From contig JAFSAO010000021.1 of assembly GCA_017440935.1 (NCBI GenBank), forward strand, positions 1 through 64,000: DNA of 64,000 bases, read 5' to 3'. Position 1 is the stretch's first letter. The number at the start of each line of letters is the position of its first letter. The DNA comes from Opitutales bacterium. Its GTDB lineage: Bacteria > Verrucomicrobiota > Verrucomicrobiia > Opitutales > UBA953. Positions 4,964-38,489 of the stretch are shown here, one piece after another. The position numbers and the translations under genes are program-made. The notes beneath the pieces are model-generated. The model was not told where the DNA came from. It saw only the letters and a program-made list of their open reading frames with translations, and made no database searches.

Positions 4964-5099
4964 AGGGAAAATTGATAATAAACGGTTAATAATTGATAGC
5001 TGATGATGAGCTTTTTAATGAATAACGAACAGTGAATAGTGAATAACGCAGAGCTAAGGTTTTTGCCTTCAGCAAAAACTTTGAACAATGAATTATTCT
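4964..5099. repeat. A/T-rich stutter sequence between cydA and cydB
   Basis: The gap is full of near-repeats of GTGAATAGTGAATAACG and their inverse TATTCATTATTCACTG, so it can fold back on itself. Similar strings occur at 27490-27590. No gene or regulatory motif is recognisable. Confidence 0.65.
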
Positions 5100-6452
5100 C
5101 TATTCATTATTCACTGTCAGTTGTTCTGTTTTCGGTCCTGCGGAGATTTTTTTGGTCAGCAGGAAAATGAAGAGGGCAAACATTACGGCGTAAATGAAGC
5201 TGAAGAAAATCAGCGAAAACCAAAGCTGGTCGGCGGTAACGTTGGTAGAAAACGCATCTTTGGTTTTGAGAAGTCCTTGGACAATCCACGGCTGGCGACC
5301 GACTTCCGTGGCGATCCAGCCCATTTGGTTGGCGAATTGCGGCAAGAGCACGGCGGGAACGCAAATCCACAGCCACCAGCGCGTTTCAAAAAGTTTTCCG
5401 CGAAACCAAAGCAGCATTCCGATTGCGGAAATCGCGCTCATTACGATGCCGCAGTAAACCATCCAGTGAAAACCTTGGAACGTGAGTTGAAGCGGCGGAT
5501 GAAGCTCTTCGGGAACGTCGTTTAGCCCGAGCACCTTCGTTTCCGGCGTTACTTCCAAGCCCTTTCCGAGCATGATGCTAACGGCACCGGGAACGGTCAG
5601 TCCGCGCACGGTTTTGGCTTCTTCGTCAACATAGCCGATAATGTGGAATCCGGCGGGTTTGTTTGAATCAAAAATTCCTTCCATTGCCGCGAATTTCACC
5701 GGTTGCATTTTTTCAACCAGCATCGCGCTGGCGTGCCCGGACGCAAATTGCAGGACAATCGCCACCGCAGTAATCGAAAGCGCAACCTTCAGCCCGCGTT
5801 GCGCCACGGGAACGAAGCGGTTTTTCAGCAAATGCCACGCGCTGACGGAAAGCACGAGAAACGCCCCCGTGAGCCATGCCGCGACAAGCACGTGCCAAAG
5901 ACGGTCGATCGTGGACGGATTGAAAACCATCGCCCAAAAATCCGTGATTTCCGCGCGCGTGCCGTTTTCCGTTTCGACAATGTGAAAACCCGCCGGCGTT
6001 TGCATCCACGAATTGGCAACCAAAATCCACAGCGAGCTCAAATGCGCGCCGAGGCAAACCATAATGACGGAAAAATAGTGAAAACCTTCCGAAACTTTAT
6101 TTTTTCCGAAAAGCACAATCCCGAGGAAGCACGATTCCATGAAGAATGCGAAAATCGCTTCCGCCGCGAGCGGACTCCCGAAAATATCGCCGACGTAGCG
6201 CGAGTAGCGCGCCCAGTTCGTGCCGAACTCAAATTCAAGCACGATGCCCGTGGCGACGCCGAAGGCGAAAATCAGCGCAAAAATTTTTGTCCAGTAATCG
6301 GCGAGCGCACGCCATTCCGGAGTTTTAAGTTTGTAGGCGAAGCCTTGAACAACGACCAGAAACACACCCAAGCCGATAGAAAGCGGCGGGAACAAAAAGT
6401 GAAATCCGGCGGTAAAAGCGAATTGAATTCGAGCAAGCAGTTCGGGGTCCAT
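5100..6452 (-). CDS. cydA: Cytochrome bd ubiquinol oxidase subunit I
   Basis: This subunit carries hemes b558, b595 and d and the quinol site. The product has 450 residues. H18 in AGFHFLFPP is the conserved N-terminal heme ligand. EFGTNWARYSRYVGDIFGSP (about 75-95), the MESCFLG segment and the C-terminal GRQPW motif (near 383) are all characteristic. The protein is at the short end of the family, consistent with a short periplasmic Q-loop, which I infer from length. It is the first gene of cydAB. The upstream 720 bp holds no gene and only repeats. The start matches family N-termini (MDPELLARIQFAFTAGFH). Confidence 0.97.
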   Translation of the reverse strand: MDPELLARIQFAFTAGFHFLFPPLSIGLGVFLVVVQGFAYKLKTPEWRALADYWTKIFALIFAFGVATGIVLEFEFGTNWARYSRYVGDIFGSPLAAEAIFAFFMESCFLGIVLFGKNKVSEGFHYFSVIMVCLGAHLSSLWILVANSWMQTPAGFHIVETENGTRAEITDFWAMVFNPSTIDRLWHVLVAAWLTGAFLVLSVSAWHLLKNRFVPVAQRGLKVALSITAVAIVLQFASGHASAMLVEKMQPVKFAAMEGIFDSNKPAGFHIIGYVDEEAKTVRGLTVPGAVSIMLGKGLEVTPETKVLGLNDVPEELHPPLQLTFQGFHWMVYCGIVMSAISAIGMLLWFRGKLFETRWWLWICVPAVLLPQFANQMGWIATEVGRQPWIVQGLLKTKDAFSTNVTADQLWFSLIFFSFIYAVMFALFIFLLTKKISAGPKTEQLTVNNE

Positions 6453-7173
6453 AACGGCAACAGTATTGAAATCATTTCAAATTCGCGCGCAAGCGAAAAA
6501 ACGAATCGAAATTTGCCGTTCCCGTGAGCGTTTTTGTGTTCCCGTGAAATATAAGCTATCCTCGTGCAGAAATTCTCTCACAGAGCCACCAAGCCACGGA
6601 GCTTTTAACGGGAGAAGCGGCACTCCTGCCGCTTCCGTGAGGCGCACGAAGTTTTTAGGAAGCACGGAAAACACCGAAAACGCGGAATTGTTTTTTTTTT
6701 GTTTATCCACAAATTTACACAAATTTCACGAATTTTATCACGGAGGACAGCCGTCTCGGCTGTCCCCTTTGTATATATTTCCTTTTTTTAATTTTAAAAA
6801 GGATCACCCTCTTAAATAAGCACCAACTATCAGGCATCATACTCCAAGCTAAATGCTTTTTGGGGGGATTGATACTTTAAGTTTTGCGCTAAAAAGAGGG
6901 CGCACTCGCGGCGCAATGGAACGGCGGCTCGCTTCGCTCTCCAATGTCAAATAGCGAATTTCGAGTATTGAATAAAATCCCGGGGACAGGCGAGACGCCT
7001 GTCCTCCCATTTTTTTTCGTTCCCGCGAAAAAAAAGTGCTTGCAGAGCCACTTTTTTTTTTGCGAGAATCGGCAACATGAATTGAGCCAGATTGTGATAG
7101 AAGTTTTCTCTCTCTGATTTGTCCCGGTTCTGCAACATTCATCTTTCACTGAAAAATTAACAACTACATCATC
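6453..7173. other. 720-bp intergenic region made of repeat-family fragments
   Basis: No credible gene. It holds in order: a copy of an ~80-bp repeat (6571-6660); phrases of the ACGGAAACACGGA kind (6660-6745); a palindrome with arms GGACAGCCG/CGGCTGTCC (6744-6768); a CACCAACTATCAGGCATC phrase (6818-6850); a segment inverted relative to 8022-8066 (6901-6960); a palindrome GGGGACAGGCG/CGCCTGTCC (6982-7006) followed by a T-run; and the A/T-rich leader of the PEP-CTERM gene. Confidence 0.75.
6571..6660 (+). repeat. Inverted repeat, left copy (outer pair)
   Basis: Nearly identical to the reverse complement of 8328-8400 apart from a 14-bp insertion (AGAGCCACCAAGCC at about 6582-6595) and one or two substitutions. 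It includes an internal hairpin with arms AGCGGCA/TGCCGCT. Confidence 0.88.
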
Positions 7174-27489: not shown

Positions 27490-27590
27490 CGAATAATTAA
27501 TAGTGAATGATTATTACTTTCGTTTTGTAGCGCAACACTCACAAAGCGTTATTTGTTATTCACTATTCATTGTTCACTAAAAATCCCCTT
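27490..27590. repeat. A/T-rich stutter sequence upstream of fic
   Basis: Contains GAATAATTAATAGTGAATGATT and the mirrored TTATTCACTATTCATTGTTCAC, the same phrases as at 4964-5099. No function is recognisable; it may include the fic promoter. Confidence 0.6.
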
Positions 27591-27632
27591 TATTCTCGCG
27601 TTCCCGCGGCTTTTCGGACACAATGGAAGCCG

Positions 27633-28901
27633 ATGGATTTCGAAGAATATCTGCGGGAAGACGAGGCGAAATTTTCTAATTTCGACGAGTATCTTCGCGT
27701 GAGCGAACCGCATACGCGGGAACGTGCTTCCGCATGGAAAACGGCTATCGGCTTGCAAGCTGTGGACGGGCTTCACGTTTCCGAATACCTGAAGGAAACG
27801 GCGTTGCGCCACATCGAAGGCGAAATTTCTATCGACGACGCGCGGGACTTAGTGTGCGGCTACTACCAAACGCGAACAGCGCGGCTTCCCGACGAAGCGG
27901 AGGCGCAGGAGGCGGACAAAGTTGCCGTCAACATCACAAAACTGCTCAGCGAAAAATCGTTTTCGTTCAGCGTTCCCGGATTTATCGCGACGCATCGCCG
28001 CATTTTTGAAGGCGTGTTTGACCACGCGGGAACGCTTCGTCCGTTCGACATCACGAAAAAAGAATGGGTGCTACGCGGCGACACGGTGCTATATGTCAGT
28101 TGCGAGGAACTCGTGCGGACGCTGGAATACGACATCGTGCAGGAGCGGAAATTTTCCTATGCGGGGCTGAATATGAACGAAACGATTATCCACCTCGCGA
28201 AATTCGTTTCCGGCTTGTGGCAGATTCATCCTTTTTGCGAAGGAAACACGCGAACGACGGCGATTTTTATCATAAAATATTTGTGCTCTATCGGATTCGA
28301 GGCGGACAACACTTTGTTTGAACGGCATTCGTGGTATTTCCGCAACGCGCTCGTTCGCGCCAATTATCGCAACGTGAAAAAAGGCATCACGCCGAATTTT
28401 GAATTTTTAATCCGCTTCTTCCGGAACTTACTTGTGGGAGAGAAAAACGAACTGAGAAATCGCCACCTGCTCATCAACGCTCCCGTCGAATGGGGAACGC
28501 CCATAACTTCCCCCGCAAGTCCGGCAACAAGTTCCCCCTCAACTTGCCCCGCAAGTTTCGAGAGTTCCCCCACAAGTTGCGCCGTAACTCCCCCCGCAAC
28601 ATCCCCGGTAAGCTCTAAAAACGCCCCCGCAAGTTCGAGCGCCGCTTGGGGAGGGCTTAGCGAAAACGTCCGCCGCTTTGTTTTAGCGACGGGAACGAAC
28701 GCGCTTTCCGTAAAAGAGGTGATGGCGGCAGTCGGCTTGAAAGATCGCAAAAACTTTATCGAATACACGTTAAGTCCGGCGCTCAAATCCGGTGTGGCGG
28801 TGCCGCTTTATCCGGACAAACCGCATCACCCCCGCCAAAAATACCGCCTGACGGTCAAGGGGCTGGCTCTCTTTAACGAAAATAAAACCTCCGAAAACTA
28901 A
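27633..28901 (+). CDS. fic: Fic-domain protein (likely AMP transferase) in the restriction locus
   Basis: Fic enzymes transfer AMP or similar groups to target proteins. From ATG 27633 the product has 422 residues; a TTG 21 codons upstream is possible. The N-terminal helix pair LKETALRHIEGEISIDDARDL resembles VbhA-type antitoxin segments fused to Fic. The Fic core motif HPFCEGNTRT lies at residues 199-208 with intact His199 and Arg207. A Ser/Thr/Pro-rich linker of about 50 residues (DNA 28507-28640, with repeated CAAGTT phrases) leads to a winged-helix-like C-terminal domain (ALSVKEVMAAVGLKDRKNF). Its TAA overlaps the hsdR ATG, so it is co-translated with hsdR. Confidence 0.92.
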   Translation: MDFEEYLREDEAKFSNFDEYLRVSEPHTRERASAWKTAIGLQAVDGLHVSEYLKETALRHIEGEISIDDARDLVCGYYQTRTARLPDEAEAQEADKVAVNITKLLSEKSFSFSVPGFIATHRRIFEGVFDHAGTLRPFDITKKEWVLRGDTVLYVSCEELVRTLEYDIVQERKFSYAGLNMNETIIHLAKFVSGLWQIHPFCEGNTRTTAIFIIKYLCSIGFEADNTLFERHSWYFRNALVRANYRNVKKGITPNFEFLIRFFRNLLVGEKNELRNRHLLINAPVEWGTPITSPASPATSSPSTCPASFESSPTSCAVTPPATSPVSSKNAPASSSAAWGGLSENVRRFVLATGTNALSVKEVMAAVGLKDRKNFIEYTLSPALKSGVAVPLYPDKPHHPRQKYRLTVKGLALFNENKTSEN

Positions 28902-31900
28902 TGGCGCACTTTGACGAACACACGCTTGAAATGGCGATAATGGAGCTTTTCCGTGCGGAAGGCTACGATTACGTTTGCGGGAACGAGATTGTGCGCGACG
29001 CAGGCGACGTCCTTTTGCGGGATGATTTTCGGGCGTATTTGCGGGAACGCTACGCATCGGACGGGATTACGCCGACGGAAATCGAGCGCGCTTTGGCACT
29101 ACTTTCCGCAGATGTGGGAACGTCGCTTTACGAAAACAACGCCAAAACGTATCGTCTCATCACGGAGGGTTTTTCGCTGAAGCGGGACGATGCTTCGCGT
29201 CCGAATCTATATATTGAGCCGATTGATTTCAGCGGGAACGGTGTTTCGGGTAATTTATTCAAAATCGTCAACCAGTTTGAAATTAAAGGGACGGAAACGC
29301 GCGTTCCCGACGGGATCGTTTTTGTCAACGGCTTGCCGATGACGGTTTTGGAATTCAAGAGCGCCGTGCGGGAAGATGCGACGATCGCGGATGCATTTAC
29401 GCAACTGACGGTGCGCTATCGGCGGGATATCCCGGAGTTGTTCAAGTATAACGCATTTGTCGTTATCAGCGACGGCGTGAACAGTAAATACGGCTCGCTT
29501 TTTACCCCATATGATTTTTTCTACGCATGGAATAAGGCAGAGCCCGGCGACCGGGCGGCGGACGGAATCGCCTCGCTGAAAACGATGGTGCGCGGGCTGT
29601 TTCGCAAGGAGCGTTTGCTCCGCGTGATAAAGGATTTTGTCTTCCTGCCGGATTCGTCGAAAAAAGAGCTGAAGGTCGTGTGCCGCTATCCGCAGTTTTT
29701 TGCGACGCACAAGCTTTTCGCAAATATTCTTGAGCATTCCAAAATGCGGCTTGGCGGCGACGGGAAGGGCGGTACCTATTTCGGCGCAACGGGTTGCGGG
29801 AAAAGCTACACAATGCTTTTTCTGACGCGGATGCTGATGCGTTCCCGCGAGTTTGCGAGTCCGACCGTTATTTTGATTACGGACCGAACGGATTTGGACG
29901 CACAACTTTCCGACCAGTTCGGTAACGCGAAACAATTCATCGGTGACGAATGTGTCGTTTCGGTGGAAAGCCGTGCGAAATTGCGGGAGCTCCTTGCCGG
30001 ACGCACCAGCGGCGGAGTTTTTCTGACGACGATTCACAAATTCACCGAAGACACGCAGTTGCTTTCCGACCGGGCAAACATTATTTGCATTTCGGATGAA
30101 GCTCACCGTTCGCAAACCAATCTCGCACAGCAGGTGCGACGTGAGGCGGACGGCGTGCGGCGCAGTTACGGTTTTGCAAAATATTTGCACGATTCGTTCC
30201 CGAATGCGACTTATGTCGGCTTCACGGGAACGCCGATTGACGAGACAATACGCGTTTTCGGCGATGTCGTGGATGCGTACACGATGACGGAATCCGTTGC
30301 GGACGGTATTACACGCCGGATCGTTTATGAAGGACGCGCTGCGCGTGTGATACTCGATAATGCTAAGCTTCGCGAAATCGAGGAATACTATCGAACATGC
30401 GAGGAGGAAGGTGCCAATCCGTATCAGATTGAGTCCAGCAAACGAGCCGTAACGCAGATGGAGCGTATCTTGGGCGATCCCGACCGTTTGCGGGCGGTTG
30501 CGGAAGATTTTATTGGGCATTACGAAAACCGCCTCGCGGAAGGCGCGACGGTGAAGGGTAAGGCGATGATTGTTTGTGCCAATCGCACCATTGCGTATGA
30601 TTTGTATAAGAAGATTGTTGCGTTGCGTCCCGAGTGGGCGGAAGTTTCCTCGGGCGGGAACGCGGAAAATACGCTATGCTTCGGGCGCGCACATCTGATG
30701 GCGGCTGAGTCTGAGGCACCTTATGGGAACGCGCCGAAACCGTGCGAGAAAATTAAGCTCGTTATGACGCGGAGCAAAGACGATGAGCCCGCTCTTTACA
30801 ATTTGCTCGGAAACGACGAGGACCGCAAAAACCTTGATAAATTATTCAAGGAACCGGACTCCGATTTTAAAATCGCAATTGTCGTCGATATGTGGATAAC
30901 GGGCTTTGACGCACCGTGCCTCGATACGATGTATATCGACAAACCGTTGCAAATGCACACGCTCGTGCAAACAATTTCCCGTGTAAATCGCGTTTTCCCC
31001 GGAAAAGAAAAGGGCTTGGTTGTCGATTATTTCGGCATTAAAAACAGCATGGACCAGGCGTTGAAAAAATACGCAACGGGAGAAATCACCGGGGATTCCG
31101 TCGAAACGGTGGAAAAATCCGTTGCGTTGGTAAAGGACGAACTCGATATCCTTCGCAGAATGTTTGCGAAATGTGATTATTCTTTGTTTACGACGGGAAC
31201 GCCTTTGGAACAACTCGAATGTCTGAATCGCGGAGCTGAATTTGCACAAGAAACCAAGGAGCGCGAAACCCTTTTCATGGGGCACGTGAAAAAATTGAAG
31301 TCGGCATTCAACCTCTGTGGCGGGAACGAGGATTTTTCGGATGCCGACCGCGAAGATATTCATTATTTCTGCGGTGTGCGGGCGATTATCGCGAAACTTT
31401 CCCGCGGGAATGCGCCCGATACGGAGCAGATGAACCTGCGTGTGGCGGCGATGGTTGAAGAGGCAATCCGGTCCGAGGGCGTTGAAGAAATTATTCAGGT
31501 CGGAAGCGGTAATGAAACGCTCGACGTGTTGAGTGCGGATTACATGACTCGTTTGGCGAAATTGCCGTTCCCGAATACGAAAATCAAACTGATGGAACGT
31601 CTTTTAAAGACGGTAATTTCGGAGTTTCAAAAAGTGAACAAAATGAAAGGCGTCGATTTTTCAAAGCGACTCAATGATTTGGTCGCGCGGTATAATGATC
31701 GGAGCGACAACGCCGTTTTGGCGGAAGAAGTGCTTTCTGAAGTCGCTGACCAAATGGCGACACTTCTGCATGAAATCAACACCGAGAAAAAATCTTTTAA
31801 AGACTTGGGTATTTCTTATGAGGAAAAAGCTTTTTACGATATTTTGAAGGCCATCGCGAAGAAGTTCGGTTTCGATTATCCGGAGGAAAAACTCGTCGTG

Positions 31901-32098
31901 CTTTCTGCGGAAATTAAGAAAATTGTGGACGACAAAGCCCGCTACACCGACTGGGCTCAACGGGAAGATATGAAGGCCGCTCTGAAAATGGATTTGATTC
32001 TTGTTCTTGCCGAACACGGCTATCCGCCCGTCCCGCAAGACGAAGTTTTCAAAGAAATCTTCGAGCAAGCCGAAAATTTTAAGAAATATAACGGGTAA
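28901..32098 (+). CDS. hsdR: Type I restriction endonuclease subunit (motor and nuclease)
   Basis: HsdR translocates DNA and cuts unmethylated DNA. The 1065 residues match the family. The N-terminal PD-(D/E)xK nuclease is visible as PDGIVFVNGLPMTVLEFKS (about 136-154). Helicase motifs follow: Walker A FGATGCGKSY (about 294-303), SDEAHRS (near 398), GFTGTP (about 440) and the C-terminal motor motif QTISRVNR. The C-terminal helical part (RDELDILRRMF-like and LNDLVARYND) contacts the methylase. It carries 13 copies of the CGGGAACG word, a normal density, so this end of the island looks native or long resident. The start overlaps the fic stop. Confidence 0.96.
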   Translation: MAHFDEHTLEMAIMELFRAEGYDYVCGNEIVRDAGDVLLRDDFRAYLRERYASDGITPTEIERALALLSADVGTSLYENNAKTYRLITEGFSLKRDDASRPNLYIEPIDFSGNGVSGNLFKIVNQFEIKGTETRVPDGIVFVNGLPMTVLEFKSAVREDATIADAFTQLTVRYRRDIPELFKYNAFVVISDGVNSKYGSLFTPYDFFYAWNKAEPGDRAADGIASLKTMVRGLFRKERLLRVIKDFVFLPDSSKKELKVVCRYPQFFATHKLFANILEHSKMRLGGDGKGGTYFGATGCGKSYTMLFLTRMLMRSREFASPTVILITDRTDLDAQLSDQFGNAKQFIGDECVVSVESRAKLRELLAGRTSGGVFLTTIHKFTEDTQLLSDRANIICISDEAHRSQTNLAQQVRREADGVRRSYGFAKYLHDSFPNATYVGFTGTPIDETIRVFGDVVDAYTMTESVADGITRRIVYEGRAARVILDNAKLREIEEYYRTCEEEGANPYQIESSKRAVTQMERILGDPDRLRAVAEDFIGHYENRLAEGATVKGKAMIVCANRTIAYDLYKKIVALRPEWAEVSSGGNAENTLCFGRAHLMAAESEAPYGNAPKPCEKIKLVMTRSKDDEPALYNLLGNDEDRKNLDKLFKEPDSDFKIAIVVDMWITGFDAPCLDTMYIDKPLQMHTLVQTISRVNRVFPGKEKGLVVDYFGIKNSMDQALKKYATGEITGDSVETVEKSVALVKDELDILRRMFAKCDYSLFTTGTPLEQLECLNRGAEFAQETKERETLFMGHVKKLKSAFNLCGGNEDFSDADREDIHYFCGVRAIIAKLSRGNAPDTEQMNLRVAAMVEEAIRSEGVEEIIQVGSGNETLDVLSADYMTRLAKLPFPNTKIKLMERLLKTVISEFQKVNKMKGVDFSKRLNDLVARYNDRSDNAVLAEEVLSEVADQMATLLHEINTEKKSFKDLGISYEEKAFYDILKAIAKKFGFDYPEEKLVVLSAEIKKIVDDKARYTDWAQREDMKAALKMDLILVLAEHGYPPVPQDEVFKEIFEQAENFKKYNG

Positions 32099-32130
32099 TT
32101 TTAGAGATTATTTTTACAGGAGAAAAAACG

Positions 32131-32463
32131 ATGTTTCCGAAAATTGAAATTGCGCACAGCGTTGCCGGCGGGAACGGCGACACCGTCAAAAAACATCTGC
32201 TTACGGCGGAGGAATTGAATGATAAGACTCGGATGTTTGCCGAAATTACGCTCGCTCCCGGGTGTTCCATCGGCTACCACGAGCATCGCGGCGAAAGCGA
32301 AACTTACTACATTCTCTCCGGCACGGGAACGTATAACGACAACGGAGAAATTCGTTCCGTTGCACCCGGCGACGTGACGTTTACGCCGAGCGGAAAAGGG
32401 CACGGGCTCGAAAATACGGGAACGGGCAATCTCGTTTTTATCGCTCTCATTCTCCGCGACTGA
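32131..32463 (+). CDS. Small cupin-domain protein
   Basis: The product has 110 residues forming a single beta-barrel. Cupin motif 1 is YHEHRGESETYYILSGTGTY (about 51-70, His52 and His54 and Glu58 as metal ligands), motif 2 the PGDVTFTPSGKGHGLENTG stretch with His near residue 92. Such small cupins bind a metal or sugar nucleotide; the function is unknown. A rare clear Shine-Dalgarno (AGGAG) precedes the ATG by eight bases. It lies 32 bases after hsdR but with its own initiation signal, so a separate function is possible. A terminator lies beyond its stop, inside the convergent ACP gene. Confidence 0.85.
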   Translation: MFPKIEIAHSVAGGNGDTVKKHLLTAEELNDKTRMFAEITLAPGCSIGYHEHRGESETYYILSGTGTYNDNGEIRSVAPGDVTFTPSGKGHGLENTGTGNLVFIALILRD

Positions 32464-32482: not shown

Positions 32483-32713
32483 TTACAGCTTTGCCGCAAG
32501 CTGTTTTTTTACCGTATCCAAGTCCTGCATAGCGGCAATTTCTTCCGGCTCAAACGCGACATCGAATTCCGCTTCCAACGCGAGAATCAGATTCAGGTGA
32601 TTTACGGAATCCCACGCTTCGCAATTTTTTTGCGAAAGCCCGGCGGGAACGGCGTCGATACCGAGCGTCGATTTAAAAACGGTTTCAAGACGTATTGAAA
32701 TAGCGTTACTCAT
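32483..32713 (-). CDS. Acyl carrier protein
   Basis: The product has 76 residues with the 4'-phosphopantetheine site Ser36 in AWDSVNHLNLI and an acidic recognition helix (EFDVAFEPEEIAAM). It carries acyl intermediates as thioesters. It is the last gene of the seven-gene acyl operon and its start overlaps the FkbH-like gene stop by 8 bp. FkbH-like proteins typically load a glyceryl unit onto a dedicated ACP encoded beside them, so this is the likely acceptor. It is unlike the housekeeping fatty-acid ACP sequence (which has DSLDTVE). Confidence 0.9.
   Translation of the reverse strand: MSNAISIRLETVFKSTLGIDAVPAGLSQKNCEAWDSVNHLNLILALEAEFDVAFEPEEIAAMQDLDTVKKQLAAKL
32485..32510 (+). terminator. 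Intrinsic terminator embedded in the end of the ACP gene
   Basis: On the + strand ACAGCTT / AAGCTGT with loop TGCCGC is followed by seven T residues and would end transcription of hsdR-cupin. The same bases code for the last residues of the convergent ACP. Confidence 0.7.
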
Positions 32714-34265
32714 GAGACAAAAATTTGTAAGCGGGGGAAATCTCTAATTCGCCGCACGTTCGCAAGTCGAGCCGGAAACGCGTCCCCGCTACATCTTCAC
32801 ACACGAATCCGAACGAGGGAAGAAAATCTTTGCAGGGCGCATTTTTTGCTGTCGGCAAATATTCCGCAAAAACGGTTTCTACGCCGCGTTCCCGCAAAAC
32901 ACAAAGAATTCTTTGAGCGAATGCGGTTTCAATGCCGCGTCCGAGTGCCCGGCAACTCAGCATAAAATTTTCGATGCGGGCGATTTTTTTGTCTGCGGAA
33001 AATGAGATTTCCGATTCGCCGACAATGCCGAGATCTCCGATTTTATCCGCAACGGAAAGCGAGAAAACCGCGTTCCCGCAGGCAAGAAAATCGCGCAATT
33101 CCGTTTCCGTGCGCCGCCGTGTTGTCAAATTAAACTGGTTCGTCTTCTGCGTGAGTTGCGCCAGTCTCGGCAACGAAAAATCGTCGGCAGGCGCGACAAG
33201 AAGGCGGATTTCCAGCGAGGCAATGTAATCTTCGAGCGAAGAAAAATTCCTCGCGGCTTCGCTACGCGCGGCGGCATCGCGGTATTGTTGCGTTTTTGAC
33301 AAATCCTCGGCGGTCAATTTTTCGCAACGGAAAAATTCATCGACGAGTTTTTCAAAAAACGCGGGAAGCTCGTAGGCGTGGCGCGGAAATTCCGGTGTCG
33401 CGACAATGCCTCCGAACGCCACTGCAACGCGCTCGCGTTCCCGCGCCTCATTGTCGACGAACACAAGCGAATCCAAGCCGATATTGAGCTCGGCGGCGAT
33501 TTGGCGAATATTTTCCGCCTTATCATTCCAATTGACGCGCCACGCGGAAATGTGTTCCCGCCGCAAAATCATCGCGGGGTGTTTTTCAAAAACTTCACAC
33601 ACGTCCGCATCATTATTCTTGGAACAAATCGCGAGAATAATTCCGCTTTCGGCGAGCTCGACGCATTTTTTTTGAAAAAACGCAAAAGCGTTTCCGGGAA
33701 AATCCCCGCCGATTTTAAGCGCGGAAAATCCGTCTTCTCCGAGCGTTCCGCCCCAAAGCGTGTCGTCGCAATCAAGGACGATACATTTTTTTCGGACAGC
33801 GGGAACGCGCGGCGGAACTTTTTCTGCTCGTTTTTTGGCGGGAGAAAACGGCATTTGTGCGAGAAACCACATGCGCCAGTCGGTTGCGAAATCCGGAGCT
33901 TCGCGCAAGAGCGCATTTTCGCGTTCCCGAGCAATTTTTTCGAGTTCGGCGTTATAAAAATGAATCGCATCACGTAAGCGCGTGTCTGCCAGAACAAGAG
34001 GCGGATTTTGCGGGAACGCGAGGCGTGTCAGCTCAAGCCTTTTGTCTGCGGGGACGCGCGGCAAGACAAGGCGTAATTTTTGCAAAAAATCGTCAACGAG
34101 CGGCTGCCCGTCTTTCGGAGAAACATCCGGCGGAAGCGTGTAAAACCAGCAAATTTTTTCCTCATTTTCGGGAACGCGTGAAATGTCTCCGTAGCCGGAA
34201 AACTCCGTTTCTTCGCGTGGAAAAAACGGCTCAAGCGTCGCGTTCCTGAAAACAAAAAGTTTCAC
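32706..34265 (-). CDS. FkbH-like HAD-IIIC protein (glyceryl-ACP synthase type)
   Basis: The product has 519 residues. The HAD motif CIVLDCDDTLWGG has Asp165 and Asp167, with the family form of DxD. Further motifs are SKNNDADVCEVF, VFVDNEAREREr-like (LVFVDNEARERE) and the FkbH landmark TQKTNQFNLTTRR. The C-terminal part (about 380-519) looks like a GNAT fold. Known FkbH proteins take 1,3-bisphosphoglycerate, dephosphorylate it and load glyceryl onto an ACP in tetronate and methoxymalonate pathways. The N-terminal 150 residues may be a degenerate SGNH-like domain. It overlaps the VOC gene and the ACP gene at its two ends, so it is translationally coupled. Confidence 0.88.
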   Translation of the reverse strand: MKLFVFRNATLEPFFPREETEFSGYGDISRVPENEEKICWFYTLPPDVSPKDGQPLVDDFLQKLRLVLPRVPADKRLELTRLAFPQNPPLVLADTRLRDAIHFYNAELEKIARERENALLREAPDFATDWRMWFLAQMPFSPAKKRAEKVPPRVPAVRKKCIVLDCDDTLWGGTLGEDGFSALKIGGDFPGNAFAFFQKKCVELAESGIILAICSKNNDADVCEVFEKHPAMILRREHISAWRVNWNDKAENIRQIAAELNIGLDSLVFVDNEARERERVAVAFGGIVATPEFPRHAYELPAFFEKLVDEFFRCEKLTAEDLSKTQQYRDAAARSEAARNFSSLEDYIASLEIRLLVAPADDFSLPRLAQLTQKTNQFNLTTRRRTETELRDFLACGNAVFSLSVADKIGDLGIVGESEISFSADKKIARIENFMLSCRALGRGIETAFAQRILCVLRERGVETVFAEYLPTAKNAPCKDFLPSFGFVCEDVAGTRFRLDLRTCGELEISPAYKFLSHE

Positions 34266-34678
34266 GATTTTTCTTCCAATAGCTCAATGAGTCCGGCTTC
34301 TTTCGAGTATAGAAACGCGACGCGTGCATTCCCGCAGGCGACGGCGGGAACGGGCGGTTTTACAAGAAGCCATCGTTCTTTGCGCAGGTCGGAAATCGTT
34401 TGGTCAATATCGGAAACTGCGTAACAAACGTGGTAAACTTCCGGTTCTCCGCCGCTTTTCTTCAAGATGTCAGAAACGGGAGACCTCTCGTCGGCAGGTG
34501 CGAGTAGCTCTGCGCGTAATTCGTCCGGTTTTTCCGCAAAGCAAATGTTTACGTTTTGGAGAGGATCAAAAACCGGCGTTGTGCAAAGATAGCCGTTTTC
34601 CCGATATACCTCGGCGGCGCTTTCAATGTCGGCGACGGCTACGCCGATGTGATGAATTTTAAAATCGGAAATGTTCAT
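34262..34678 (-). CDS. VOC (glyoxalase/bleomycin-resistance) superfamily protein
   Basis: The product has 138 residues with two beta-alpha-beta-beta-beta modules. HHIGVAVADIESAAEVY opens the first and VYHVCYAVSDIDQTISDL the second; the metal-binding His (HHIG and YHVCY) and Glu (LIELLEE) are present in the pattern of methylmalonyl-CoA epimerases and related enzymes. In this operon an epimerase or lyase step on an ACP- or CoA-bound intermediate is plausible. It overlaps the FkbH-like gene stop by 4 bp and begins 7 bp after the ketosynthase. Substrate unknown. Confidence 0.82.
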   Translation of the reverse strand: MNISDFKIHHIGVAVADIESAAEVYRENGYLCTTPVFDPLQNVNICFAEKPDELRAELLAPADERSPVSDILKKSGGEPEVYHVCYAVSDIDQTISDLRKERWLLVKPPVPAVACGNARVAFLYSKEAGLIELLEEKS

Positions 34679-34684
34679 TAGCCG

Positions 34685-35749
34685 TTATTCTCCAAATGTG
34701 ACGGGAGCGGAAATGTTTGTCGAAGCGAGCGAAAGCGTTGCGGCGCCCCAGGAAAGACCGGCACCGAATCCGCAGATGAAAACGCGTTCCCGTGCGGAGA
34801 GATTTTTCCCGCATTCGGAAATCGTGAGCGGAATGGAGGCGGAACTCGTATTTCCGTATTTGTCGAGTGAATACAGGATTTTTTCGGAGGGAATTTTCAT
34901 GCGTGCCGCAAGAAAATCGGTCATCATTTTGTTCGCTTGATGAAAGACGATGCCGTCCGCTTCGCTTGGCGAAAATCCCGCAAATTCCGCGGTTTCTTTC
35001 ATGACGGCGGGAACGCTGCGAATCGCAAAGTTAAAAACATCCATTCCGTTCATGAAAACTTCGCAGGCGGAACGAATATTTCCTTCGTTGTCCGCTTCCT
35101 CTGAGAGCGTTTCCGCAGAAGCGGGAACGCGGCAGCCGCCGGCGGGAATTTTTACGGAATCTTCGCCGTTCCCGTCTGTTTTCAGAACGAAACAGGTTTC
35201 CCCGAAATCCTCGGATTTTTCAATGATTGTTGCCGTTCCCGCGTCGCCGTAGAGTGGCGCGTTCACGCGGTCGCGCGGATTGACGATTTTGGAAAAGGTT
35301 TCTCCGTCGAGCAAAAGCACACGGCGAACCGTCGGCAAATTTGCGTAGGCAAAAGCGGAGGAAAGCGCGTAGACGTAGCCGGAACAACCGAGCGACAAAT
35401 CCATTGCCGCGCAGTTTTTTGAGAGTCCGAGTCTCTGTTGGAGTATCGGAGCCGTCGCGGGAATTTTAAAATCGCCGGTTTGGCTCATGAAAAGCAAAAC
35501 GTCGATGCTTTCTCGGGGAAGGTCGGGATTGTCTGAAAAGAGTTTTTCGGCGGCGGCGAAGCATAGGTCCGACGCGCAAACGTTTGGCGGCACAATCCGT
35601 TTTTCTCGAATGCCGATTGCATTAATGGTTTTTCCGATTTCTTCTGCGGGAACGAGATTTTTTAAGGTCTCTTCATTGCGCGAAATTTCTGCGGGAACGC
35701 AAGCGGAGAGGGCGCGGATGCCGATGCCGTTGAAGCGAAAATTTGCCAT
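34685..35749 (-). CDS. 3-oxoacyl-ACP synthase III-like enzyme
   Basis: The product has 354 residues of the thiolase fold, forming carbon-carbon (or carbon-oxygen) bonds between acyl groups. The full catalytic triad is visible: Cys122 in LGCSGYVYAL, His270 in VFHQANKMM and Asn300 in YGNTSSASIPL. It is longer than fatty-acid FabH (about 317) and the context is secondary metabolism. In tetronate clusters a FabH-like enzyme joins a glyceryl-ACP to an acyl chain, which matches the FkbH-like gene and ACPs here; this assignment is inference. Seven bases separate it from the VOC gene and 13 from the SDR gene. Confidence 0.92.
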   Translation of the reverse strand: MANFRFNGIGIRALSACVPAEISRNEETLKNLVPAEEIGKTINAIGIREKRIVPPNVCASDLCFAAAEKLFSDNPDLPRESIDVLLFMSQTGDFKIPATAPILQQRLGLSKNCAAMDLSLGCSGYVYALSSAFAYANLPTVRRVLLLDGETFSKIVNPRDRVNAPLYGDAGTATIIEKSEDFGETCFVLKTDGNGEDSVKIPAGGCRVPASAETLSEEADNEGNIRSACEVFMNGMDVFNFAIRSVPAVMKETAEFAGFSPSEADGIVFHQANKMMTDFLAARMKIPSEKILYSLDKYGNTSSASIPLTISECGKNLSARERVFICGFGAGLSWGAATLSLASTNISAPVTFGE

Positions 35750-35762
35750 AGAAAATTGTCTT

Positions 35763-36527
35763 TTAGCGCAATGTCAGCCCGCCGTCGATGACGAGTTCCG
35801 TTCCCGTGGTCCATGCCGCCGCGTCGGAGAGGAGATAGACCGCGGCGTAGGCGATTTCTTCCGGTTTCCCATAGCGCCGGAGCGGGTAGTTTTTTTGCGC
35901 GTCTTCGTTGAGTTGCGCTTCGCTCAACCCGATGCTTGCGTGGATGGGCGTTTCCACCGCTCCCGGGCAGATGCAGTTAACGCGCGTTTTTTGGTAAGCG
36001 AGTTCGAGCGCCATCGCTTTTGCCGCACCGCAGAGCGCGGCTTTGGAAAGTGCGTATGCGGTTTGCCCGACTGAAGTAATGCGCGTTCCCGCGACTGAAG
36101 AAACAAAAACGATTGAGGCTCCGTCGCGAACGGTTCCGTTTTTCAGCAAACGCCGTGTCAGTTCAATCGGCGCGAGCGTGTTAACGCTCAAAAGTTTTTC
36201 GAGAACTTGGGGCGGGGCAAACGGGAACGGGCGCAACTTTGAAATTCCGGCGCAGTGAACGATGCCGTCGTAGGGCGTGGGAGAGGCTCCGAGAAGGTTT
36301 TCAAAATCTTTCTCGTCGGACAAATCCGCAACGCATTTCGCCGTAAACGCACCGAGCGGGCGCGGAAGCATTTGAAAAGTTTCTTCAAGGCGTGGTTCGT
36401 CGCGTCCGGTGATGACGACGGAGGCGCCCGCTTCGGCGCAGGCGACGGCGCAAGCGCGCCCGATTCCCGACGACGCACCCGTCACCAAAATGACTTTACC
36501 TTCAAGCGAAAACGGATTTTTTGCCAT
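35763..36527 (-). CDS. Short-chain dehydrogenase/reductase (FabG-like)
   Basis: The product has 254 residues with NAD(P)-binding TGASSGIG (16-23), structural NNAG equivalent HCAG, and catalytic Ser143/144, Tyr158 and Lys162 (YALSK). The end DGGLTLR is family-typical. It is a classical SDR that likely reduces a 3-oxoacyl-ACP or a polar group made by the neighbouring ketosynthase. It is the third gene of the acyl operon. Confidence 0.93.
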   Translation of the reverse strand: MAKNPFSLEGKVILVTGASSGIGRACAVACAEAGASVVITGRDEPRLEETFQMLPRPLGAFTAKCVADLSDEKDFENLLGASPTPYDGIVHCAGISKLRPFPFAPPQVLEKLLSVNTLAPIELTRRLLKNGTVRDGASIVFVSSVAGTRITSVGQTAYALSKAALCGAAKAMALELAYQKTRVNCICPGAVETPIHASIGLSEAQLNEDAQKNYPLRRYGKPEEIAYAAVYLLSDAAAWTTGTELVIDGGLTLR

Positions 36528-36540
36528 GGCGGAAGCGTTT

Positions 36541-36771
36541 TTAGCGGTTGCGTTCTACGGCGCTGAAAAGATCTCCGAGCGTTTCAGCGTTGCGGATGTC
36601 GTCTCCTTTGAGGAGCACGTCGCATTCGTCTTCGACAAGCGCCATGAGCGAAAGCGCGAGAAGGGAGCTCCACTCGGGAAGTTCCTTGAACTTTGTTGCT
36701 TCGGAGAGCGTTCCCGCGGGTGTTTGAGTTAAGAGCGCAGAAAATATTTCAATGAAATTTTGAGACGTCAT
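36541..36771 (-). CDS. Second acyl-carrier-protein-like gene
   Basis: The product has 76 residues with the helical layout of an ACP. The phosphopantetheine region reads PEWSSLLALSLM, where Ser36 would be the attachment site but the usual preceding Asp is a Ser. An acidic helix (DECDVLLKGDDIRNAE) follows as in ACPs. Two distinct ACPs in one small operon suggests separate loading of two building blocks. It lies 2 bp from the acetyltransferase gene and 13 bp from the SDR gene. The altered DSL motif lowers certainty that it is phosphopantetheinylated. Confidence 0.75.
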   Translation of the reverse strand: MTSQNFIEIFSALLTQTPAGTLSEATKFKELPEWSSLLALSLMALVEDECDVLLKGDDIRNAETLGDLFSAVERNR

Positions 36772-36773
36772 TT

Positions 36774-37415
36774 TTAAATATCAAAAAGAGTTGCGGGATT
36801 GCCGATGTAGGTTTTTCCGTTTTTCGGCGTGCGGACGAGGACGCTATTCGCGCCGAGCGTTACATCGTCGCCGAGCGAGACTCCCTGAAGAACAACGGAG
36901 GAAACGCCGAAGAAATTGCGGTTTCCCGCAGTAATATTTCCGGAGATACGGACGCTGGGATTAAACATATTGAAATCACCGATTTTTGAATCGTGCCCGA
37001 TGTAAATTTGCGTGTTGAACAGGTTGAAGTTGCCGAGTTCGACATCGCACGAAATCACCGACTGGTGAGAAATGAGGTTTCCCCTGCCGAGGCGGAGTGT
37101 GGCGGGATCCATGATGCGTGCCGTCGGTGCGATAATGTTCGGAAACGTGATGTTCGGATTGGAAATTTTTCCGGAAAGCGCCTCGATTGTTTTCGGCGCT
37201 GCGATCGCAAAAATAAGAGCGAGTTCTCCGTTCCACGCATTCAGCGCGTCCATGTTGCCGAGAATTTGTCCCTGATTGTTGCGTGTTCCCGCGGGAGCAC
37301 CGTCGTCGAAAAAACCGACGAAATCCCAAGTGGGGGCAATTTCGTTGATTTCTCGAAGTAGGCAAGCAGTTTCTCGTCCGAATCCGCCTGCGCCGTAAAT
37401 GGCGATGCGTTTCAT
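36774..37415 (-). CDS. NeuD/PglD-type sugar O-acyltransferase
   Basis: The product has 213 residues from ATG 37415; the frame extends 20 codons upstream but the conserved start is MKRIAIYGAGGFGRE. The N-terminal Rossmann-like part (IYGAGGFGRE) precedes a left-handed beta-helix of hexapeptide repeats (GRGNLISHQSVISCDVELGN, IGHDSKIGDFNMFNPSV, cited in part), ending in the acyl-CoA loop IGNPATLFD. Family members acetylate amino sugars or sialic acids for surface glycans. As first gene of the acyl operon, it suggests a glycan or glycolipid modification as the product; alternatively it may transfer the ACP-made acyl group. Confidence 0.85.
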   Translation of the reverse strand: MKRIAIYGAGGFGRETACLLREINEIAPTWDFVGFFDDGAPAGTRNNQGQILGNMDALNAWNGELALIFAIAAPKTIEALSGKISNPNITFPNIIAPTARIMDPATLRLGRGNLISHQSVISCDVELGNFNLFNTQIYIGHDSKIGDFNMFNPSVRISGNITAGNRNFFGVSSVVLQGVSLGDDVTLGANSVLVRTPKNGKTYIGNPATLFDI

Positions 37416-37499
37416 AATCAGAAAATTTTGCCGTTCCCGCTTCCTTTTATCAAGGACGGAATATTTCGGGGACAAGCGAGAGTTGCGCGAGCTTCGTCC

Positions 37500-38489
37500 T
37501 TACGCACGTTTTTTGCGGGAACGCCGGGATGCGGCAAACGCCAACGCGAACGTTCCCGCGATAAGCCCGAACGCCGACGGCTCCGGAATTGCCATAATCG
37601 CGTTAATTTGGTCGGCGTATTGGGAAAGGTCGGCGAAGTAGGTGGCGCAGACAGAATTTTCTGTTTCTTTGTAGCCAACGGTTGTTGCCGTTTCCGAGTT
37701 CCCGCCGATACCGATTAGCGTTCCCACAAGTAACCATTCCCCGTTTTGGTAAACGAAAACTCCGCTTCCGGAATCGTATTGCGTGGCTTGAAAGCTTGTC
37801 TCCTTGTTCGAGAAAACTTCAGCGTAGCATTCGGTGGTTCCGGACGTATTTACGGGAACGGTAGCTACTGTCGAAACGGTGCCGTTTTCGTCGGCTACGG
37901 AAATGTTGTTTCTCTTAAATTCCGCCCATTGTTTTTCGCGTGTTCCCGTGGTGTAGGCTGATCCGATTGCAGTCGATTTCCCGGTTCCCACGGAGTAAAG
38001 ATTGGTCGAGGTCGTCAGCGTTCCCGTGTAAATATCTATATTACCGAGGGAATCCAAAAATTCGGAGGTTTCTGTATTTACGGATACTGAATAAATTTTG
38101 AGATCTGCAGTGCCGATTCTCCAATTTTTGTTTGCAGTAAGATTGTAGGTTGAACCGTCTGTCGTCGTGATGGACATGGAGTGCATTCCGACATGATTTG
38201 CTGTCAGGATCAGGTGAGACCCGTCGGCAGCTCGTCCGAGGTATGTTGCCGTTCCTCCGTCATCCGCAATCCAAACCGTGCGATTCCAAATTTCGGAAAT
38301 ATCTGTTGTGGCGGTGGAATAGTCGGTATTGTGGGTTTCTTTAACCGATGTTGAAAACCCGAAAAATTTTTCTTCGTAAATCGACGCCACCATCGCATTT
38401 GCGGCGGGAACGGCGGAAAAGGCGAGCGCGAGCGTTCCCGCGAGGGCGAAAAATCGGGAGGGGAAGAAAAAGTTGCAACGATGTTCCAT
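37500..38489 (-). CDS. Secreted trypsin-like serine protease with PEP-CTERM tail
   Basis: The product has 329 residues: signal peptide to about residue 32 (ending PAANA), then a chymotrypsin-fold domain with putative triad His99 (LTANHVG), Asp129 (GTADLKIY) and Ser240 (YDSGSGVFVY). The C-terminus is a PEP-CTERM tail: IPEPS (301-305), a hydrophobic helix and RRSRKKRA. The exosortase system is expected to anchor or process the tail. The triad is read from motifs, not from alignment. It is divergent from nuoE. A second PEP-CTERM protein in the window shows that the organism uses this sorting pathway. Confidence 0.87.
   Translation of the reverse strand: MEHRCNFFFPSRFFALAGTLALAFSAVPAANAMVASIYEEKFFGFSTSVKETHNTDYSTATTDISEIWNRTVWIADDGGTATYLGRAADGSHLILTANHVGMHSMSITTTDGSTYNLTANKNWRIGTADLKIYSVSVNTETSEFLDSLGNIDIYTGTLTTSTNLYSVGTGKSTAIGSAYTTGTREKQWAEFKRNNISVADENGTVSTVATVPVNTSGTTECYAEVFSNKETSFQATQYDSGSGVFVYQNGEWLLVGTLIGIGGNSETATTVGYKETENSVCATYFADLSQYADQINAIMAIPEPSAFGLIAGTFALAFAASRRSRKKRA

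Follow-up and report, generated by a model that had tools for sequence, protein, structure and literature searches.

A run of seven minus-strand genes from a gut Opitutales bacterium is read here as an acyl cassette that serves an amino sugar of a surface glycan, a reading to which we assign a probability of about 0.72. The genes lie in a 64,000-nt window, the whole stretch of DNA that was analyzed (GenBank assembly GCA_017440935.1, contig JAFSAO010000021.1, positions 1-64,000), and run from 37415 to 32483 in the order NeuD, ACP1, SDR, KASIII, VOC, FkbH and ACP2 (ACP, acyl carrier protein). The cassette is of the acyl-ACP sugar N-acylation type, with a glyceryl-loading unit added. The reading is based on gene content, active sites, the co-occurrence of modules, linkage to pgl-type genes in relatives and the pgl genes of this genome. 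We infer every chemical step, the origin of the C3 unit (from the FkbH family) and the acceptor in this species.

Gene products of the operon

The original prediction described seven reverse-strand genes that overlap or lie no more than 13 bp apart, and all open reading frames (ORFs), gaps and overlaps were confirmed. In the order of transcription, the intergenic gaps are 2, 13, 13 and 6 bp, followed by overlaps of 4 and 8 bp. The features are:

36774-37415, minus strand: NeuD/PglD/VioB-type sugar N-acyltransferase (NeuD), 213 amino acids (aa), ATG start; TIGR03570 profile
36541-36771, minus strand: ACP1, 76 aa, predicted carrier of the KASIII/SDR module; profile and AlphaFold2 fold
35763-36527, minus strand: SDR, FabG-like 3-oxoacyl-ACP reductase, 254 aa; adh_short_C2, 2e-52
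34685-35749, minus strand: KASIII (FabH-like) ketosynthase, 354 aa, accessory; PRK09352, 7e-68
34262-34678, minus strand: VOC/methylmalonyl-CoA epimerase-like protein, 138 aa; TIGR03081, 64 bits
32706-34265, minus strand: FkbH protein, 519 aa, GTG start; TIGR01686, 252.5 bits
32483-32713, minus strand: ACP2, 76 aa, predicted carrier of FkbH, overlapping FkbH by 8 bp; profile
37425-37453, minus strand: promoter-like site TTGATA-17-CAAAAT directly 5' of NeuD; a consensus match, alone no better than chance

Residue conservation was checked across 39-81 homologues per protein, and the catalytic residues of the operon proteins are intact, with one departure in HAD motif IV of FkbH. The first gene product, an O-acyltransferase in the original prediction, turned out to belong to the NeuD/PglD/VioB family of sugar N-acyltransferases. 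It matches TIGR03570 over the full profile (9e-44, 149.5 bits; cut-off 160.8) as a family relative outside the curated limit. Its closest solved structures are 4m9c and VioB (7txp), and the catalytic-type His141 is found in 51 of 51 homologues. ACP1 went unrecognized in single-protein family scans; its alignment profile matches ACP structures, and the best solved matches to its AlphaFold2 model (pLDDT 93) are ACPs, with TM-scores of 0.7-0.8. The profile of ACP2 also matches ACP structures (from 4e-12). Ser36 is present in all homologues of both carriers (56/56 for ACP1 and 72/72 for ACP2). The SDR (family profile match 8e-56) has a Ser144-Tyr158-Lys162 set that is invariant among homologues, and the Cys122-His270-Asn300 triad of KASIII is found in 62 of 62.

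The VOC protein matches the VOC/methylmalonyl-CoA epimerase profile at 2e-17 and falls below the 114.95 cut-off of the methylmalonyl-CoA epimerase equivalog TIGR03081, at 64 bits. The VOC fold is retained, and a candidate metal set of His10, Gln41, His83 and Glu132 is conserved. FkbH scores well above the curated TIGR01686 cut-off of 146.65. Structure matches divide it into an N-terminal domain, a HAD-IIIC phosphatase domain (3slr-like) and a C-terminal GNAT-like domain. Asp165/Asp167 of HAD motif I (DxD(N/D)T), Ser215 of motif II and Lys249 of motif III are invariant in 81 homologues, and Cys438 is also invariant. Motif IV retains Asp271; at its second position, 75 of the 81 sequences have Asp and 6, including the window protein, have Asn.

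Module exchange and linkage to pgl-type genes

Module co-occurrence was counted in a set of 60 mutually related FkbH loci with full flanks. Each of the 47 loci with KASIII also has ACP1, none of the 13 loci that lack KASIII has it, and SDR is found only where KASIII is present. ACP2 accompanies FkbH in 59 of the 60 loci, and VOC occurs in 9 of the 13 that lack KASIII. This pattern indicates two units, FkbH-ACP2 (frequently joined by VOC) and ACP1-SDR-KASIII, with VOC probably acting on the FkbH product. The one congener without FkbH (G011, L194:454-6396) has a NeuD gene, 75% identical, at the corresponding upstream site, and the module behind it comprises two KASIII genes, two ACPs, an SDR and an AMP-ligase-like start, with a glycosyltransferase-like ORF on the opposite strand. 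Thus, the acyl module swaps while NeuD remains. The transferase also differs between loci while the FkbH loading unit persists. In another genus of the family, one locus (L102:1-5239) contains FkbH, an ACP, a PseH-like GNAT protein, VOC, a sugar-formyltransferase-like protein and a DegT aminotransferase, and a second (L103:4154-9956) contains FkbH, VOC, the formyltransferase-like protein and the aminotransferase. In L075, a locus of Tannerella type, a gene for an AAC(3)-like acyltransferase separates VOC from FkbH.

Neighborhoods were counted on 76 contigs from outside Verrucomicrobia. One DegT aminotransferase family (PglE-type) is found on 43 of these and one PglC-type sugar transferase family on 17; at least one of the two is present on 48 of the 76, and on 42 of the 57 with at least 15 kb of sequence. 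The gene directly 5' of NeuD is PglC-type in 13 and the aminotransferase in 20 of about 43 cases. Thus, the cassette takes the position of pglD, and in Bacteroidales it typically lies beside PglC-type sugar transferases and PglE/PseC-type aminotransferases. The genes for the 4-amino sugar adjoin the cassette in most relatives and in a sister species (G015), and do not adjoin it in the window. The window's genome encodes PglC, PglD, a LegC/PseC-type aminotransferase and a PglH/PglJ-like glycosyltransferase on contig C4, and PglF-type dehydratases on C22 and C17. The C4 PglC and aminotransferase have a median identity of 62% to the cassette neighbors in relatives.

In a family test, 79 genomes were searched with KASIII and with the C4 aminotransferase, and 37 have both. 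In 25 of these 37, the aminotransferase has a KASIII relative on its own strand within 8 kb (span 1.6-6.7 kb, most 1.6-2.5 kb), and a NeuD-family gene stands between the two in all seven loci that were inspected outside the genus. The sister species G015 (L155:1067-8967) has a pgl operon of the form PglE-PglC-PglD-...-NeuD-ACP1-KASIII-SDR in one run, without FkbH. This operon also contains a fused GNAT/pyridoxal phosphate-enzyme ORF (5033-6487). In G013 (L153:5160-6386), the start of a PglE-type aminotransferase gene is fused to the end of a KASIII gene and followed by an intact SDR, which looks like a deletion scar of a pgl-KASIII operon. The pgl cluster of the congener G012 (L152:12348-14106) has an ATP-grasp gene that is apparently broken by stops or a frameshift.

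Proposed chemistry and alternative readings

The operon holds in one run the KASIII, reductase, dedicated ACP and NeuD/PglD/VioB acyltransferase that are shared by two described systems, wfpC-wfpG and vioS-vioR-acp-vioB. In Flavobacterium psychrophilum, wfpC-G encode ketosynthases, a dedicated ACP and a 3-ketoacyl-ACP reductase, together with a PglD-like acyltransferase whose predicted acceptor is UDP-D-Qui2NAc4N, and a 3,5-dihydroxyhexanoyl R-group was predicted from the genes and the known structure (PMC6519341). Those genes lie within a pgl-type O-antigen locus, whereas the cassette here stands apart from sugar genes; FkbH, a second ACP and VOC are not described among them (PMC6519341). The Pseudomonas syringae viosamine island and the Pseudomonas aeruginosa PAK glycosylation island likewise combine KASIII (VioS), a reductase (VioR), an ACP and the VioB acyltransferase, and vioR mutants of P. 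syringae lack 3-hydroxybutyryl-viosamine (PMC3927599). The viosamine island differs in serving a flagellin glycan and in having VioA, VioT and a methyltransferase, and FkbH and VOC are not among its seven genes (PMC3927599). The Campylobacter Pgl bacillosamine pathway (PglF, PglE, PglD, PglC) offers a further parallel, as NeuD is a PglD-family protein whose relatives occupy the pglD position by PglC/PglE-type genes. The donor of Campylobacter PglD is acetyl-CoA, whereas the cassette here seems to make its own acyl-ACP donor.

From these parallels and the predicted activities, we propose the following route to a short hydroxyacyl group of unusual structure. AcpS would convert ACP1 and ACP2 to the holo form, and FkbH, acting as phosphatase and acyl transferase, would turn 1,3-bisphosphoglycerate into glyceryl-S-ACP2. 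VOC may then shift a proton at the alpha carbon of the alpha-hydroxyacyl thioester in an epimerase- or glyoxalase-like manner; within the epimerase/glyoxalase group, VOC enzymes catalyze either proton shifts on acyl thioesters or the formation of alpha-hydroxyacyl thioesters. KASIII, primed by the C3 unit, would carry out the condensation with malonyl-ACP1, and SDR would reduce the 3-keto group to give, for example, 3,4,5-trihydroxypentanoyl-ACP1. With this acyl group, NeuD would then acylate UDP-4-amino-4,6-dideoxy-GlcNAc at its 4-amine; the nucleotide sugar would come from PglF- and PglE-type enzymes encoded elsewhere in the genome. Finally, a PglC-type enzyme would load the acylated sugar onto undecaprenyl phosphate, leading to a Pgl-type surface glycan. 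The exact acyl group is a doubtful point, for which 3,4,5-trihydroxypentanoyl is the simplest candidate.

A broader model is possible, if speculative, in which FkbH-ACP-VOC would be widespread among gut bacteria as a modular unit that loads glyceryl for sugar N-acylation. By itself this unit would give N-glyceroyl sugars, and with ACP1-SDR-KASIII longer polyhydroxyacyl groups, VOC being a new glyceryl-ACP epimerase or isomerase. Sugars with glycerate-derived acyl groups are known from Tannerella forsythia (Pse5Am7Gra), where the glyceroyl genes were called "elusive" (PMC6120980), and from Campylobacter (di-O-methylglyceric acid-Pse; PMC3958885); this acyl is the group that an FkbH-ACP pair would make. 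The origin of N-glyceroyl sugars has been termed "a major challenge" (PMC6388019). The cassette provides a testable candidate gene set for such sugars, including those of T. forsythia. If the reading of the operon as an acyl cassette is right, central glycolysis, via 1,3-bisphosphoglycerate, supplies surface-sugar decoration in some Verrucomicrobiota as well as in many gut Bacteroidales, and swaps of small modules at a fixed site alter the acyl group, a cheap way of varying surface antigens.

Several observations weigh against the reading of the operon as an acyl cassette for a glycan amino sugar. The operon is flanked in the window by nuoE/nuoF-like genes and by a cupin with a Fic/HsdR-like pair, not by sugar genes, and the NeuD score is slightly under the family cut-off. 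In the Opitutales FkbH proteins, phosphatase activity could be weakened by the replacement of the second motif IV Asp with Asn. Because the 60 FkbH loci are related, the co-occurrence counts overstate their independence. The pgl cluster on C4 has its own PglD, so the NeuD of the cassette may serve another acceptor, and its aminotransferase scores best with the LegC/PseC-type model, so the sugar may be a precursor of a nonulosonic acid and not bacillosamine.

The operon might instead make two separate acyl groups, with KASIII, primed by acetyl-CoA as FabH is, and ACP1-SDR giving 3-hydroxybutyryl, FkbH-ACP2-VOC giving glyceryl, and NeuD or another transferase using each. We consider this unlikely. 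It would account for the ACP-KASIII-SDR-NeuD cassette without FkbH in G015, for the 3-hydroxybutyryl made by comparable genes in P. syringae (PMC3927599), and for two loci (L025 and L044) with FkbH-ACP2 and NeuD and without KASIII. However, the genes form a single operon with one acyltransferase, no second transferase is present in it, and KASIII directly adjoins VOC-FkbH in many loci. It is likewise improbable that the NeuD-like protein acts on something other than a 4-amino sugar, be it a glycan hydroxyl, a lipid or a free small molecule. The lack of sugar genes beside the cassette here and the separate PglD in the genome would fit such an acceptor, and the AAC(3)-like acyltransferase that replaces NeuD in L075 indicates that transferase and acceptor vary. 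Against this, the NeuD/PglD/VioB members with solved structures use 4-amino sugars, and the cassette is linked to pgl genes in relatives and in the sister species.

The original prediction saw the core of tetronate biosynthesis in FkbH, an ACP and a FabH-like enzyme, and these three are indeed shared with the glycerate-utilization operon mad7/8/16/17/18 (PMC7489565). In a tetronate pathway, KASIII would join glyceryl-ACP2 to a beta-ketoacyl-ACP1 and a tetronate ring would be released. This is very improbable here. Unlike the mad operon, the seven genes lack the Agg4/Agg5 pair (neither the Agg4-type acyltransferase nor the Agg5-type dehydratase family was found in the operon) and a polyketide synthase (PKS), and include SDR and NeuD; SDR would destroy the beta-keto group that a tetronate requires, NeuD would have no role, and the relatives are located in glycan clusters. 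The absence of a modular PKS, noted originally for this region, holds genome-wide: the only two ketoacyl-synthase matches are in open frames of FabF size (431 and 419 aa), neither of them modular in size. Thus, of the original suggestion of a small acylated surface glycan or tetronate-like metabolite, the glycan part is borne out by pgl-type neighbors in relatives and the pgl cluster in the genome, and the tetronate part is not. The supply of a hydroxymalonyl- or methoxymalonyl-ACP extender from glyceryl-ACP2, for use by KASIII, is hardly credible: the entry step of the methoxymalonyl path is FkbH with a free-standing ACP (PMC7489565), but the operon lacks the O-methyltransferase and both dehydrogenases that the path requires. 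Both the tetronate and the methoxymalonyl readings were dropped on the gene content of operon and genome.

The cassette is accessory. FkbH is single-copy in the genome, a separate canonical FabH is encoded on contig C8 (427.8 bits, above the cut-off), a FabG match above the cut-off is on C12, and AcpS is on C20. A role in primary fatty acid synthesis was dropped, as the genome has this FabH, the FabG match and the two FabF-size enzymes.

Distribution, recombination and surroundings

FkbH is present in 7 of the 8 genomes of the window's genus. The same seven-gene order occurs in three congeners (L017, L018 and L020) and in nine Bacteroidales contigs (L021, L023, L026, L029, L033, L037, L048, L063 and L070), and because of this recurrence the arrangement is not due to chance. 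Unlinked genes in related species, which would have counted against the original prediction, were not what we saw, as the genes are linked in congeners and in Bacteroidales. The proposal of a new class of cluster in gut Verrucomicrobia did not hold. Among the 388 genomes sampled in the phylum, full-length matches to the window FkbH are limited to its own genus, and FkbH-domain proteins of other Verrucomicrobia mostly align only from about residue 120 onward. Outside the genus, the nearest full-length relatives, 40-47% identical along almost the entire protein, are mostly from gut Bacteroidales, which also hold the nearest full cassettes. The cassette is neither a tetronate cluster nor specific to Verrucomicrobia, and is conserved and reshuffled. 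Searches of the openly accessible literature for FkbH in capsule or glycan loci did not turn up this gene set, which is not proof of absence.

A quick tree, with an unresolved backbone, groups the genus in a single clade beside, not within, a Bacteroidales clade that has support. Plasmid records gave only partial matches, below 40% identity. FkbH-domain proteins of about 40% identity are encoded on viral-classed IMG/VR contigs (L147, L148 and L149). The window and L017 share 98-100% identity over the second half of NeuD and on through VOC, and 70-83% in the first part of FkbH; there the window is closer to L020 (86-97%), which is more distant elsewhere. The operon is a mosaic, with FkbH (32706-34265) recombined from different lineages of the genus, as expected for genes exchanged among congeners.

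The spacing TTGATAAAA...GGCAAAAT 5' of NeuD is retained with small changes in L017, L018, L020 and L194. Scans for promoters and terminators gave numbers of matches no better than chance. Directly upstream of the operon, a 329-aa protein with a PEP-CTERM-like tail (IPEPSAFGLIAGTFALAFAASRRSRKKRA) is encoded on the minus strand (37500-38489). It has no Pfam match, is kept in L018, and was not found at the corresponding place in L017 and L020. Downstream (27570-32463) lie a Fic-domain protein, an HsdR-like protein (by reading only) and a cupin, and at least two of these genes are at the corresponding place in L017, L018 and L020.

The octamer CGGGAACG, the core of GCGGGAACGC, has 214 sites in the window (1-64000) versus 10 expected. 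It occurs in all reading frames and on both strands, and at about 3 per kb on other contigs as well. The observation covers the window, L117-L120, L017, L018, L020 and L098; the octamer is nearly absent from other genera and scarce in the stretches of the congeners G014 and G016. It resembles a repeated word of the DNA-uptake or HIP1 type.

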